Source: a bacterium
GTDB lineage: Bacteria; DYJV01; JALVYZ01
NCBI GenBank assembly: GCA_027037705.1
Contig: JALVYZ010000361.1
Span: 949-7,134, forward strand
Reading direction: 5' to 3'
DNA length: 6,186 bases
Below are positions 588 to 6,186 of the stretch, piece after piece. The notes under the pieces are model-generated. The model had not been told where the DNA came from, made no database searches, and saw nothing but the letters and a program-made list of their open reading frames with translations. Numbering within the stretch: the stretch's first letter is position 1; the number at the start of each line of letters is the position of its first letter. A program made the position numbers and the translations under genes.

Positions 588-3548
588 ATGACTGCAAATC
601 AAGGGAAATCAACAGTTCTCGTCTATGGGACAAACATGTCTGGTTATAGAACAATCTATGCTCTTGGAAAGTTAGGTTATAAAACAATTCTTTTAAATAG
701 AGGAAAATATGTAGATGAAGTAAAAAATCAGGTTTTAAGTCAATTACCTCTTGATTTATGCTGGGCATGTGCATTTGGTCCGCAGAGAATGTTTGTTGGA
801 CTTGGTGCTTTAAATGTTTTTTACAGTGCTGATATTCTTGAAATAAAGGGAACTCCTGGTAACTACAAAGTTAAAATTAAAAAGAAAGACCCTTATGTTA
901 ATAATTTTATATGCACAGAATGTAATAAATGTGTTGAAGTATGTCCTGAAGGTGCAATTGAGGTTATGCCAAAAGTTTTCTGGGAGAACATCTATTTAAT
1001 TAATGAAGAAAAATGCACAAAATGTGGAAAATGTGAAGAAATTTGCCCAACTGGAGCGTTAAAACTTGACAAAAAAGAGGAAGAACTTGAAGTTGAAGTA
1101 GCTGGTATTGTTTTATCTCCAGAGTATGTGGATGTTGATAAAGGAGATTTAGAAAAATTTGGCTATAAAGTTTTTAAAAATGTGTTAAAAAATTCAGATA
1201 TTGTTAGAGGCAATATTCCTACAAGTTTTGTTCTAAATTCTCTAAAAAGAAGGTCTGATGGGAAATTGCCTCAGAAAATTGCAATTATTGTTACTCCTCA
1301 ATACAACAATATTGAATATGAGGATTTCAATACAACAAATATAGCAGTATATAGAGCAGTTAGAATAAAAGAGCTTCACCCCTCAGCAGATGTTACAATT
1401 TTTATGAGAAATTACAGAGGATTTGGAAAAGGTGCATATAAAATTTATGAAAGAGCAAAGGAAATTGGTGTTAAAATTATTAAAGCTGATGATGTTTATT
1501 TAAATGAGCTTGAAAACAATGACCTTGAAATAACTTATAAACTTGCAGGTAAACAAAATAAAGAAAATTACGAATTTGTAATTCTTGTGACAGGTCAAAA
1601 AGCTCCAATAGAAGAGGTTAAAAAATTTGAAAAACTATGCAAAATCAAAGGAGATAATCATGGTTTCTGTTACATAGAACCTTTTACAAACAATAAAACA
1701 AACATTCCGGGAATTTATGCAGGAGGCGAATTTACAGGACCAAGGGGAAACCCTGAAACTGTATGGGAAGGATATGATATTGCGCAGGATATTTTAGACT
1801 TTCTTGGCAAACCAGTTGTATCTCCCCCACAACCTCCTCCATTTAGAGATGTTTCCAAAGAAGAGGTAAAAATTGGAGTATTTTTATGTTCATGCTTTGG
1901 AAAATTCAATGATAAAATAGATATTGAAAGATTAAAAGATGAAGCATCTAAAATACCTTATGTAACCCATGTTGAAATATTAAATGGTGCATGCACACCT
2001 CAAACAATACAGGAAAATGCTAAAAAAATTAGAGAGTCCGGTGTTAATAGAGTTATTTTAGCTGTTTGTACTCCATTACAGAAGTTAATGAAATTCAGAA
2101 AAACTGTGATGATGGGAGGACTTAATCCATTACTTGCTGAATTTTTAAGGTTAAGAGAGGATGTTGTTAATGTTCATGAGGATAAAGAGAAAAAACTTGA
2201 AAAAGCTTTATCTTTGATTAGAGCTGCTGCTCTAAAATTAAAATATGCTCTTCCATTTCCAGGAGCAAGTGATAAATTTCATGGTAAAGCATTTGTAATT
2301 GGTGGTGGTGTTGCGGGAATGGAAGCAGCTATTAGACTTGCAAAAAGAGGAGTTCAGGTAACATTAATTGAAAAATCTGACTCTCTTGGTGGAATAGCAT
2401 ACAGACTTGACTCAGACATAGAAGGAAGAGATTTAAAAAAATTTATTGAATCGCAAATTAAAGAAATAAAAAGAAATGAAAATATAAAAGTTTATTTAAA
2501 TTCTGAAGTTGACTCAATAAAAGGATATGCTGGAAATTTTAAAATTATATTTTCAGAAAACAAAAAAATAACCCATATTGAAGATGCTGGAGTAATTTTC
2601 ATTGCAACTGGAGCTAAAATAAGAGAGGTATCATCTTATTTTTATGGCAAAAATCCAAATATTTACACTCAACTTGATATGGAAAAAGCAATTAATGAAG
2701 GTAAATTCAGTGCAAAATCAGTTGTAATGATTCAATGTGTTGGATCAAGAAACAAAGCTTATCCTTATTGCTCAAGAATTTGCTGTTCTCAGGCATTAAA
2801 AAATGCATTGAGATTAAGAGAAAAAGGGGTTGAAGTTACAATTTTATACAGAGATTTAAAGCTCTATGGATTTAAAGAAGATTACTACAAAGAAGCTGTA
2901 AATAAGGGAGTTAATTTTATTAGATTTTACGATGATAATTATCCAAAAGCAGGACAAACTGAGAATGGTTTTAAAATTACTGTAAAAGAGTATGGAACAG
3001 ATGAGGAAAAAGCAATAAATTGTGATGCTTTAGTTTTAAGTGTTGGTATAAGACCTGATATTGAAACAAATAAAAAATTGTCACAAATGACAGGAATAAA
3101 ATTATTTGAAAATGGATTTTTTGCAATTTCTCCAGGTCCTTTTGAAGAAGCAGCTAAAAAATTGATGAAACCATTTGAATTGCAGACAAATGGAGTATTC
3201 CCAATAGGAATGGCTTTATCTCCAAGAACAGTAGATGAAAGTTTATTAACTGCAAGACAGGCTGTTGGTCAATCTCTAATATTTCTTAAAAAACAGAGAT
3301 TACCAGCACCAAATGGAGTATTTGTATCAGAAGTTGATGAATCAAAATGTGTTGGGTGTGGATACTGTGTTGAAGTATGCCCATACAATGCAAGAAGCAT
3401 AGATGAAGTTAAGAAAAAAGCAGTTGTTCATCCATTTTTATGTGATAGCTGCGGTGCATGCGTTGTTGCATGTCCAAGTGGAGCAGCTTTTATAAGAGAT
3501 TTACAGGATAAACAGGTAATTGCATCAATTGATGCGTTGTTGGGATAG
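588..3548 (+). CDS. hdrA: HdrA-like electron-bifurcating flavoprotein with two tandem modules
   Basis: A 986-residue cytoplasmic iron-sulfur flavoprotein, much longer than the roughly 650 residues of a classical HdrA. Module 1 (about 1-410) has a Rossmann-like start (GTNMSG, 14-19), CxxC at 58-61, two ferredoxin motifs (C109/112/115/119 and C143/146/149/153), and an HdrA-like end, YAGGEFTGPRG (378-386) plus ETVWEG. Module 2 has the HdrA N-terminal domain (about 428-555, with C434, C436, C469 and C494). A canonical FAD fold follows (GGGVAG, 572-577; E595 ends strand 2), then the HdrA signature QCVGSR...YCSRICC (716-733), LSPRTVDESLLTARQA, and two C-terminal ferredoxin motifs (C921/924/927/931 and C952/955/958/962). 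In the HdrA family FAD takes electrons from MvhD and splits them between ferredoxin and a higher-potential acceptor. Module 1 has lost the middle Gly of GxGxxG (Asn16), the ribose-binding Glu (Asn37) and the QCVGSR/CC motif, so only module 2 looks fit to bifurcate. First gene of the operon. The family is certain; the physiological partner is not. Confidence 0.92.
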   Translation: MTANQGKSTVLVYGTNMSGYRTIYALGKLGYKTILLNRGKYVDEVKNQVLSQLPLDLCWACAFGPQRMFVGLGALNVFYSADILEIKGTPGNYKVKIKKKDPYVNNFICTECNKCVEVCPEGAIEVMPKVFWENIYLINEEKCTKCGKCEEICPTGALKLDKKEEELEVEVAGIVLSPEYVDVDKGDLEKFGYKVFKNVLKNSDIVRGNIPTSFVLNSLKRRSDGKLPQKIAIIVTPQYNNIEYEDFNTTNIAVYRAVRIKELHPSADVTIFMRNYRGFGKGAYKIYERAKEIGVKIIKADDVYLNELENNDLEITYKLAGKQNKENYEFVILVTGQKAPIEEVKKFEKLCKIKGDNHGFCYIEPFTNNKTNIPGIYAGGEFTGPRGNPETVWEGYDIAQDILDFLGKPVVSPPQPPPFRDVSKEEVKIGVFLCSCFGKFNDKIDIERLKDEASKIPYVTHVEILNGACTPQTIQENAKKIRESGVNRVILAVCTPLQKLMKFRKTVMMGGLNPLLAEFLRLREDVVNVHEDKEKKLEKALSLIRAAALKLKYALPFPGASDKFHGKAFVIGGGVAGMEAAIRLAKRGVQVTLIEKSDSLGGIAYRLDSDIEGRDLKKFIESQIKEIKRNENIKVYLNSEVDSIKGYAGNFKIIFSENKKITHIEDAGVIFIATGAKIREVSSYFYGKNPNIYTQLDMEKAINEGKFSAKSVVMIQCVGSRNKAYPYCSRICCSQALKNALRLREKGVEVTILYRDLKLYGFKEDYYKEAVNKGVNFIRFYDDNYPKAGQTENGFKITVKEYGTDEEKAINCDALVLSVGIRPDIETNKKLSQMTGIKLFENGFFAISPGPFEEAAKKLMKPFELQTNGVFPIGMALSPRTVDESLLTARQAVGQSLIFLKKQRLPAPNGVFVSEVDESKCVGCGYCVEVCPYNARSIDEVKKKAVVHPFLCDSCGACVVACPSGAAFIRDLQDKQVIASIDALLG

Positions 3549-3552
3549 GAGG
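3547..3552 (+). promoter_or_regulatory. mvhD ribosome binding site overlapping the hdrA stop codon
   Basis: AGGAGG begins on the second base of the hdrA TAG stop and lies five bases before the mvhD ATG. The two genes are nine bases apart, so a ribosome ending hdrA covers this site. This suggests translational coupling and matched amounts of the two proteins. Confidence 0.8.
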
Positions 3553-3557
3553 TAAAC

Positions 3558-3959
3558 ATGACCTGGGAGCCAAAGATTGTTTATATAATGTGTTCATGGT
3601 GTGGGTCTGGAGGTGCAGAAAGTGCATCAGCTTATGGTTTAAAATATCCTGAAAATATAAAACCATTTAGAGTATGGTGCACAGGAGGTCTTGATCCAGC
3701 GTACATTTTAAGAGCATTTTTAGAAGGTGCTGACGGAATATTGATAAGTGGATGTCATCCAGGAGACTGTCATTATGATACTGGAAATTATTTTGCAAGA
3801 AGAAGACTTGCAGCACTTAAAACAATTTTAAAAACTTTTGGATTTGATGAAGATAGAGTCTGGCTAAGATGGGTTGGCCATTCTGAAGGAAAAAGACTTG
3901 TGGACACAGCAATAGAATTTAATGAACATATAAAAAAATTAGGACCGAATAAGATTTAG
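3558..3959 (+). CDS. mvhD: MvhD-type [2Fe-2S] electron-transfer subunit
   Basis: A full-length 133-residue MvhD/FlpD-family protein (usual size about 130-150). The family carries a [2Fe-2S] cluster and links a hydrogenase or formate dehydrogenase to the FAD of HdrA in the cytoplasm. The five expected cysteines are present: C12 and C15 (CSWC), C41 (VWCTGG), C66 and C71 in the highly conserved GCHPGDCHY stretch. The family's ADGILISG and ARRRLAALK segments are also clear. It starts nine bases after hdrA with an overlapping ribosome binding site, the usual partner arrangement. Its TAG stop shares two bases with the first 7-base unit of the repeat that follows, so the exact C-terminus may have been set by the repeat. 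No hydrogenase or formate dehydrogenase catalytic gene lies in the window, so its electron donor is not visible. Confidence 0.95.
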   Translation: MTWEPKIVYIMCSWCGSGGAESASAYGLKYPENIKPFRVWCTGGLDPAYILRAFLEGADGILISGCHPGDCHYDTGNYFARRRLAALKTILKTFGFDEDRVWLRWVGHSEGKRLVDTAIEFNEHIKKLGPNKI

Positions 3960-4033
3960 TCGGGAGTGCGGAGTCTGGAGTGTGGAGTAAAAAAATTTAA
4001 AAACTCACGACTCCTGACACCAGACCCCAGACT
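3958..4033. repeat. heptamer-built inverted repeat, copy 1
   Basis: A 76-base element: left arm of 31 bases (3958-3988), a 14-base A/T centre (3989-4002) and a right arm of 31 bases (4003-4033). The left arm is four 7-base units of the form AGTNNGG (AGTCGGG, AGTGCGG, AGTCTGG, AGTGTGG) plus AGT. The right arm is the degenerate reverse complement; 22 of 31 positions pair in the simple register, and shifted registers also pair because the arms are periodic. It fills the gap between mvhD and the first FrhB-like gene, starting inside the mvhD stop codon and ending seven bases before GGAGG. It could be a non-autonomous mobile repeat, an RNA hairpin that protects or processes the transcript, or both. 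Confidence 0.9.
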
Positions 4034-4040
4034 GCATTTT

Positions 4041-4045
4041 GGAGG
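4041..4045 (+). promoter_or_regulatory. ribosome binding site that sets the start of the first FrhB-like gene
   Basis: GGAGG lies five bases before the ATG at 4051. An in-frame TTG at 4039 would place this site inside the coding sequence, so the ATG is the better start. The 20 bases from 4037 to 4056 (TTTTGGAGGCAAAAATGAAA) recur exactly at 5094-5113 before the second paralogue. Confidence 0.85.
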
Positions 4046-4050
4046 CAAAA

Positions 4051-5016
4051 ATGAAATATTACAAAGTTGAAAATGTCAAGGATTTTCTTAAAAATCTTAT
4101 GGATGAGAAAATTGTTGAAGCTCTTATTCTACCATTAAAGTCCTATACAGAAGAAGCATACAACCCTTTTTTAATAAAAGATAAAAGTTTAATTGATAAA
4201 TCTGAACCTTTTACTTTTTGCAAAGGGATAAACACAGCAAGAGAAGTTTCAAAGTTAACATTTAAAGGTGCTTTACCATTTAAAACTGGAATTGTGTTAA
4301 AACCATGTGAGCTTAGAGCATTTAGAGAACTTATAAAATTAAATCAGATAAATCCTGAAAATTTAGTTACAATCTGCTGTGATTGTAATGGATTTGAAGA
4401 TAGAGAAATCTGTGAAATGTGTGTTGATTTTGTGCCTGATTATGCTGATGTTAAAATATTGAGTTTAGGACTGGAGGGATACTATATTGAAACTGATTTA
4501 GAGCTTCAATTGGAGGAAAACAGTGGAAATTTAGAAAATATAGAAAAGGAAATATTAAAAATTTTAGATGAAAAAAGAAAAAATAGGGATAAAAAATTAT
4601 CAGAAATTAAAAGCAATTTAAAAGATCTTTTAAAAAATTGCATATCGTGCCACAATTGCATGAGAGTTTGTCCAATATGTTTCTGTCAGGAATGTTTTTT
4701 TGATTCTCCTGCCTTAAAAAATGATTCAGTTACATACTTAATGAGAGCTTCAAGAAAAAATGGGCTTGATTTTCCAGAAAACAAACTTTTATTTCATCTT
4801 GGAAGAATGAACCACATGAGTGTAAGCTGTGTAAACTGTGGTGTATGCGAGGAGGTGTGTCCTGCACAAATCCCTGTATCTCAAATTTTTGTAGCAGCAG
4901 GAGATGAGCTTAAAAAATTATTTAATTATCAACCAGGAAAATCACTTGAAGATAAAATACCATTTACATGCTATCAACATGATGAATTACATGATTTTGA
5001 GAAAGAATACAAATAG
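4051..5016 (+). CDS. FrhB/FdhB-like iron-sulfur oxidoreductase subunit, paralogue 1
   Basis: A 321-residue cytoplasmic protein with no signal peptide or membrane helix. The N-terminal half resembles the FrhB/FdhB beta-subunit family of F420-hydrogenases and formate dehydrogenases: KPCELRA (84-90, like the family's GTPCQI), a Cys cluster at 109-112, and CEMCVDFVPDYAD (121-133, like the family's CxxC-DF-AD signature). C86, C109 or C110, C121 and C124 could hold one [4Fe-4S] cluster next to a flavin. A charged, Lys/Glu-rich linker (about 160-192) leads to a C-terminal half with an unusual motif, C197-x2-C-x2-C-x3-CPICFC-x2-C215, and a ferredoxin motif (C260/263/266/270). It ends with VSQ and FNYQPG segments shared with its paralogue. 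Third gene of the operon; it probably docks with HdrA-MvhD in place of, or beside, HdrBC. Whether its partner is NAD(P)H, F420, a formate dehydrogenase or something else cannot be read here. Confidence 0.8.
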   Translation: MKYYKVENVKDFLKNLMDEKIVEALILPLKSYTEEAYNPFLIKDKSLIDKSEPFTFCKGINTAREVSKLTFKGALPFKTGIVLKPCELRAFRELIKLNQINPENLVTICCDCNGFEDREICEMCVDFVPDYADVKILSLGLEGYYIETDLELQLEENSGNLENIEKEILKILDEKRKNRDKKLSEIKSNLKDLLKNCISCHNCMRVCPICFCQECFFDSPALKNDSVTYLMRASRKNGLDFPENKLLFHLGRMNHMSVSCVNCGVCEEVCPAQIPVSQIFVAAGDELKKLFNYQPGKSLEDKIPFTCYQHDELHDFEKEYK

Positions 5017-5090
5017 TGCGGAGTACGGAGTCTGGAGTGTGGAGTAAAAAAATTTAAAAACTCCCGACTCCCGACACCAGACTCCAGACT
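5015..5090. repeat. heptamer-built inverted repeat, copy 2
   Basis: Same 31-14-31 layout as the copy at 3958: left arm 5015-5045 (AGTGCGG, AGTACGG, AGTCTGG, AGTGTGG, AGT), an identical 14-base centre (5046-5059) and right arm 5060-5090. In the simple register 23 of 31 positions pair. In a shifted register AGTCTGGAGT (5029-5038) pairs perfectly with ACTCCAGACT (5081-5090). It again begins inside the upstream TAG stop codon and ends seven bases before GGAGG. The right arm is followed by G and six T residues, so the folded RNA resembles a weak intrinsic terminator or attenuator ahead of the last gene. Confidence 0.9.
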
Positions 5091-5097
5091 GTTTTTT

Positions 5098-5102
5098 GGA
5101 GG
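5098..5102 (+). promoter_or_regulatory. ribosome binding site that sets the start of the second FrhB-like gene
   Basis: GGAGG lies five bases before the ATG at 5108. The in-frame TTG at 5096 is rejected as a start because it would put this site inside the gene. Spacing and surrounding bases are the same as before the first paralogue. Confidence 0.85.
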
Positions 5103-5107
5103 CAAAA

Positions 5108-6151
5108 ATGAAAGAAAAAGTGGTTGAGATTTTGAAAAAGGCTTTTGAAAAATCTGAAATTGATGGTGCTGTTGTTATGAGTAAAAGAGAAGATGGATAC
5201 AATTATGTTCTGTATTCAAATTTTGAAGATATAGGTGAAATATCTCCTTTTCATCCTGTGATGAAATTAAATGGAGCTAAAGTTATCTCACTTGTGACAA
5301 AGGATAATGATTTAGGAAAGAAATTTTTATTTATTTTAAAACCATGCGAGGTTAGAGCTGCAATTGAATTGAAAAAACTCAACCAGATTGACTTTAATAA
5401 TACAATTTTAGTTTCCTTCACCTGTCCTGGAGTTTTTGAATTTAAAGAAGGGAATAACTTTGAAGATATTGATAAATTATTAGATGATTTTAAAAATGGA
5501 AATTTATCTGAAAATTTAAGGGAAACTTGTAAATCATGTGAATATTTTAAAGGTGAAGGTTCAGACATTTTAATTGATATTTTTAATGAAGAAGTAATAT
5601 CTTTAACAGCTAAAGGAGAAGAATTTTTAAAAAATATTGATTTAAATTTTTCAACTGAGATAAAAGATAATGAAAATTTAAATAAAATAAAGGACTTAAG
5701 AGCAAAGAATGCATCAGATTTATACAAAAGTTTTAAAAAAGACTTTAAAGATGAAAATAAATTAATTGAATTTTTTGATAAATGTATAAAATGCAATAAT
5801 TGTAGAGAAGCATGTCCTATTTGCTACTGCAGACAATGTTATTTTGAATCAGAAACATTCAAATATTATCCAGATTCAATCAAGAGAAAATTTCAAATAA
5901 AATCAGCTTTAAGACTTCCAACTGATAAAACTTTATTTCACCTTGGACGGGTATCTCATATGGCAACCTCATGTGTTGCATGTGGAATGTGTGAAGATGT
6001 ATGTCCAATGGATATCAAAGTCTCACAATTTTTCAAATATATGGGTAAAAATATTCAGGAAACATTTAACTATGTTCCAGGTATAAACAGAGAAGAACCA
6101 TTACCATTGTTAACTTTTAAAGAGGATGAATTTAGGGAAGTGGAGGACTGA
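5108..6151 (+). CDS. FrhB/FdhB-like iron-sulfur oxidoreductase subunit, paralogue 2
   Basis: A 347-residue cytoplasmic protein, paralogous to the gene just upstream. It has KPCEVRA (78-84), FTCPG (C106) and CKSCEYF...SD (141-153), matching the four-cysteine pattern of FrhB/FdhB proteins. Next comes C226-x2-C-x2-C-x3-CPICYC-x2-C244, then a ferredoxin motif (C289/292/295/299) and closing VSQFF and FNYVPG segments. From 225 to 325 it aligns without gaps to 196-296 of paralogue 1, with about 47 of 101 identical residues by hand count. The N-terminal halves differ much more, and here the stretch between C106 and C141 is longer and acidic. The two proteins may form a heterodimer or act at different steps. 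Last gene visible in the operon; the transcript could continue past the window. The substrate is unknown; transfer of electrons between HdrA-MvhD and a further enzyme is inference. Confidence 0.8.
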   Translation: MKEKVVEILKKAFEKSEIDGAVVMSKREDGYNYVLYSNFEDIGEISPFHPVMKLNGAKVISLVTKDNDLGKKFLFILKPCEVRAAIELKKLNQIDFNNTILVSFTCPGVFEFKEGNNFEDIDKLLDDFKNGNLSENLRETCKSCEYFKGEGSDILIDIFNEEVISLTAKGEEFLKNIDLNFSTEIKDNENLNKIKDLRAKNASDLYKSFKKDFKDENKLIEFFDKCIKCNNCREACPICYCRQCYFESETFKYYPDSIKRKFQIKSALRLPTDKTLFHLGRVSHMATSCVACGMCEDVCPMDIKVSQFFKYMGKNIQETFNYVPGINREEPLPLLTFKEDEFREVED

Positions 6152-6154
6152 TTG

Positions 6155-6186
6155 AGTCAGGAGTCGGGAGTGCGGAGTCAGGAGTC
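6155..6186. repeat. heptamer repeat, copy 3, cut by the window edge
   Basis: Four 7-base units of the same AGTNNGG form (AGTCAGG, AGTCGGG, AGTGCGG, AGTCAGG) followed by AGTC at the edge. It begins three bases after the TGA of the second FrhB-like gene, so it corresponds to the left arm of the two complete copies. Whether an A/T centre and a right arm follow, and which gene lies beyond, cannot be seen. Confidence 0.8.

Follow-up and report, generated by a model that had tools for sequence, protein, structure and literature searches.

Convergent G-rich heptamer arrays at gene ends, and the probable copying of one such hairpin, together with a ribosome binding site and start codon, between two junctions of a bacterial operon

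Introduction

Short tandemly repeated repetitive (STRR) heptamers occur in heterocystous cyanobacteria, and we know of none with a paired design that includes a ribosome binding site (RBS). Fingerprinting based on STRR sequences has been put to use (PMC5088731). Closer to the case described here are the heptamers of Xanthomonas and Nostoc, with the units GGGNATC and GGGGA(C/T)T, which prefer four units (Rehm et al. 2015, PMC4692102). These are intergenic, lying between aligned genes within 50 bp after stop codons (sense) or before start codons (antisense); many form convergent inverted pairs, and they have been linked to four G-tracts and GGG quadruplexes (PMC4692102). A further family, the TAACTGA heptamers of marine Beggiatoaceae, is intergenic, lies near genes and is present in two to six copies (MacGregor 2015, PMC4679880).

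Here we describe a family of GGAGTNN arrays in a bacterial draft genome, which matches the Xanthomonas and Nostoc heptamers in its seven-base G-rich unit, its preference for four units, its placement and its convergent pairs, but differs in that the unit has a constant GG only and a variable dinucleotide, and in that one pair carries an RBS and ATG along with it. As three of the features described by Rehm et al. are found and the GGG-quadruplex feature is not, the element is a variant of that heptamer class rather than a strict member. With STRR sequences it shares the form of dispersed intergenic heptamer arrays, but the units are others; TAACTGA repeats are likewise short intergenic heptamer arrays near genes, but these are directed toward start codons, usually stand in place of the RBS and do not vary in sequence (PMC4679880). 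REP/REPIN elements with their RAYTs are also short extragenic palindromes at gene ends, sometimes paired, but the arms described here are built of direct heptamers and show no GTAG/CGTC tag at their ends. REP/RAYT identity is also not supported by a search of the draft genome (~93% complete) for Y1_Tnp (PF01797), in which controls were detected and no match was found.

Results

The window, by which we mean the whole stretch of DNA analysed (6,186 nucleotides; 949-7134 of contig C361), lies at the end of a 7134-base contig in a 2.05-Mb, 496-contig draft genome; G+C was 27% in the genome stretches read. Its features, in window coordinates, are as follows.

In window: ComEC-like gene, partial
588-3548: HdrA-like gene
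3558-3959, + strand: mvhD/flpD, its C-terminus ~7 residues short of that of relatives and ended by the element
3958-3988, + strand: junction 1 arm 1, AGT(NNGGAGT)4, whose first AG completes the mvhD TAG stop (3957-3959)
3989-4002, + strand: junction 1 A/T loop, same bases as the junction 2 loop
4003-4033, - strand: junction 1 arm 2, the 31-mer in inverted form, changed at three core positions
4034-4056, + strand: junction 1 spacer, Shine-Dalgarno GGAGG (4041-4045), ATG and AAA of gene A; in the copied tract, outside the repeat family
4051-5016, + strand: gene A, encoding a 4Fe-4S protein from an old clade that occurs with HdrA/MvhD
5015-5045, + strand: junction 2 arm 1, whose first AG completes the gene A TAG stop
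5046-5059, + strand: junction 2 A/T loop
5060-5090, - strand: junction 2 arm 2
5091-5113, + strand: junction 2 spacer, GGAGG (5098-5102), ATG and AAA of gene B
5108-6151, + strand: gene B, encoding a 4Fe-4S protein from another old clade
6155-6185, + strand: third array, starting three bases beyond the gene B stop; the contig breaks within that junction

Both junction units thus run in the order stop codon, AGT(NNGGAGT)4, 14 A/T bases, inverted 31-mer, 7 bases, GGAGG, 5 bases and ATG AAA. The hairpin itself consists of two four-unit G-rich heptamer arrays in convergent orientation and belongs to an interspersed non-coding repeat found at the ends of genes; its predicted RNA fold has short stems interrupted by small internal loops where the variable NN bases lie. 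Rfam gave no family at gathering score and a plasmid collection gave no match. A terminator scan, limited to loops of 3-8, returned no site; the stem is followed by six T in copy 2 (junction 2) and by CATTTT in copy 1 (junction 1).

A pattern of three units is matched exactly 58 times in the source genome and not once in G001, the sole same-order genome compared. Within 40 stretches totalling 297 kb, which include every contig listed with three perfect units, there are 50 arrays (32 four-unit, 11 three-unit and 7 five-unit), with variable dinucleotides that are chiefly CG, CT, GC and CA. Thirty-seven of these arrays lie on the sense strand shortly after a stop codon and eight lie antisense, at most 27 bases before a start; this placement rule is obeyed by 45/50 within 100 bp, mostly within 30 bp, and the remaining five are unassigned. 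Convergent inverted pairs number about nine in the genome, both window units included. The pattern is present in 35 of the 386 genomes searched, mostly in low numbers, and array placement in other genomes with GGAGTNN arrays is suggestive only, with few loci and a crude gene caller. The 6.1-Mb genome G323 stands out with 308 GGAGTNN matches, far above the source genome and mostly four-copy GGAGTTG/GGAGTTA.

The two junctions are strikingly alike. The sequence-only reading had described an ungapped 99-base match with 8 differences, and this is confirmed: 3958-4056 aligns with 5015-5113 at an offset of 1057 with 91/99 bases matching, the differences falling at 3961, 3962, 3968, 4007, 4015, 4026, 4035 and 4036 (arm 1 28/31, loop 15/15, arm 2 28/31, spacer with RBS 14/16, ATGAAA 6/6). 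A whole-genome search recovers copy 2 from copy 1 with E 1.8e-35, so the likeness is not due to chance. Its boundaries are sharp: upstream coding DNA is identical at 20/58 positions, and successive 24-mers after ATGAAA at 12/24, 10/24, 9/24 and 7/24, while the proteins encoded by A and B share 31% identity over a 350-column alignment.

That reading had also posed the question of whether the RBS and ATG belong to the element throughout the genome. They do not, since all 22 other genomic matches to the 99-mer end at or before base 76, which places RBS and ATG outside the repeat family and confines them to a local copied tract. The 20-mer TTTTGGAGGCAAAAATGAAA from the RBS tract has no exact occurrence elsewhere in the genome, and the RBS regions (-20..+6) of A and B match at 24/26, ranking top among 15,753 pairs of 178 genes in a test made post hoc, with a runner-up at 23/26. 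RBS likeness of this sort can come in part from convergence on A-rich Shine-Dalgarno regions.

Hairpins from different contigs are 61-83% identical and their loops differ, whereas the two window copies agree at 92% of positions. Contig C6 carries three hairpins that also resemble one another closely (87-93% identity, loops almost the same), and the genes downstream of them are not paralogous among themselves, which shows that paralogy is not needed for local likeness; the stretch from RBS to ATG differs within this trio, but is shared in the window pair. Away from the window, then, the loop and variable bases of the element drift, and only here are RBS and ATG co-copied. Local likeness of hairpins was seen in these two neighbourhoods only, and single arrays show no excess likeness on the same contig (p 0.25), which weighs against copying between junctions.

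The genes are much older than this likeness. In a tree of 29 relatives, A falls in a clade of 8 rows (support 95/96) and B in a clade of 6 rows (100/99), both of which span several phyla, and one member of each is present in four other genomes (MAGs of Deltaproteobacteria, WOR-3 and Euryarchaeota, and one unclassified). Separate multi-phylum clades, along with genomes that hold both, place the split of A and B before this lineage acquired or inherited them, and hence make the likeness of the junctions far younger than the gene duplication; the earlier argument that old duplication alone is insufficient is borne out. The arrangement at 588-6151 of the window, HdrA-MvhD with either or both of two related 4Fe-4S families after it, recurs in Aquificota, Deltaproteobacteria, WOR-3, Aerophobetes and Euryarchaeota MAGs.

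Some mark of the element's arrival can also be read at the gene ends. In five relatives whose mvhD-A junction was read there is a short gap, and the element is absent. MvhD of the window has the C-terminus GPNKI-stop, ending exactly at the element, and relatives in several phyla keep about seven further residues (GPNPLKRWDT or similar; GPSTLKSAWDA in G001); gene A too ends sooner than most of its relatives, but gene B does not. The element supplies the stop codon of MvhD and has taken the place of its last ~7 residues, and the shortened ends of MvhD and gene A indicate that it came in at the ends of genes and displaced part of them.

Discussion

Synthesising these findings, we consider it probable (at roughly 70%) that a single hairpin of this interspersed repeat, along with the neighbouring RBS, start and second codon, passed between junctions of the operon through local copying or gene conversion. 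We suggest that the hairpin would first have settled at gene ends in this genome and that, long after the divergence of A and B, it would have been copied from one junction to the next together with the RBS, ATG and second codon, whether by short-range gene conversion or by template-switch copying. The repeat family, where it sits, the relative age of genes and junctions and the limits of the shared tract are shown by the data; that a single copying event lies behind the pair, along with its mechanism and direction, is something we infer. Of the explanations that the sequence-only reading had offered, recent spread or gene conversion fits the data, and selection on RNA structure is not supported.

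It is also conceivable, although we think it unlikely, that two copies of a young mobile subfamily, with its own loop and RBS, inserted independently into the neighbouring junctions without conversion. The family is interspersed, and a single parent is suggested by the common loop and by a core variant, GGTGT in arm 2, that both copies have; against this, no third copy with the same loop or RBS tract was found in the genome, the draft yielded no Y1 transposase, and two adjacent paralogous genes as landing sites would be a coincidence.

Less likely again is a functional RNA, in which translation of A and B would be under the hairpin's control, pairing of arm 1 with arm 2 would free GGAGG from the ACTCC arm, and selection would keep the junctions alike. 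Folding of the two copies does beat that of shuffles (z -3.6 and -5.5), and in those hairpins that were inspected, the gap from stop codon to RBS between aligned genes is taken up by the element. When arm 1 is deleted in silico, the ACTCC arm of either copy is predicted to pair with most of the Shine-Dalgarno bases, an arrangement that would allow translational coupling; some of these bases are, however, paired in the full unit too, and the majority of the genome's arrays consist of a single arm 1 without arm 2, so masking of the Shine-Dalgarno sequence is not a general function. None of the six differences within the hairpin is part of a two-sided compensatory change, and two disrupt core pairs of copy 1 when the arms are aligned in the plain register (at one of them, C4026, the predicted fold restores pairing by a register shift), whereas conservation is highest in the unpaired loop; an unchanged loop and uncompensated stem differences are the opposite of what selection on structure predicts, and the free divergence of elements elsewhere in the genome tells against it as well.

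Finally, the order of parts seen here is what one would expect had a junction and its gene been duplicated in tandem, but inheritance of the junction through the duplication that made A and B, kept since by purifying selection, is highly improbable in view of the separate clades with members in other phyla, the absence of the element from relatives and of arrays from the same-order genome, and the collapse of coding identity right after codon 2.

Returning to copying between junctions as the preferred account, we regard the heptamer hairpin as mainly a tolerated interspersed element, albeit one whose stem-loop, as modelled, may shield the mRNA upstream of it or have an attenuating effect on the operon. 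Two consequences follow for how such repeats are viewed: repeats of the GGAGTNN kind trim gene ends, MvhD having lost a tail that its relatives keep, and within one operon an RBS and start codon have, on this account, been homogenised between junctions of long-separated genes.

The family also bears on the link that Rehm et al. drew to four G-tracts, which is weakened by a repeat that agrees in copy number, polarity and pairing yet has GG tracts only, and for which the GGAGTNN family provides a test case. With only GG constant, a three-layer quadruplex is not expected; as a reason for the four units, quadruplexes were set aside for the RNA, where ViennaRNA, with quadruplexes switched on, predicts none at 37 or 60 C. 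We speculate, with considerable doubt, that four-unit heptamer arrays with the same inward placement at gene ends arise in unrelated lineages without quadruplex potential, that the rule of four copies of seven bases stems from a hitherto undescribed copying process acting on DNA or from a protein that binds with a seven-base period, and that this process may also move an RBS and start codon between junctions.

Two minor observations concern the sequence of the unit and its surroundings. GGA is the usual motif of CsrA, which is present in this genome, and it recurs in the heptamer unit, but nothing ties CsrA to it. The intergenic DNA of the source genome, at about 470-760 in a stretch of contig C413 and in other gaps, also contains further short tandem families, namely AAATGCGT 8-mers, AACACT 6-mers, GGCTATA and GGTTGAA 7-mers, and AATGAAAA, several of them strung together in one gap.
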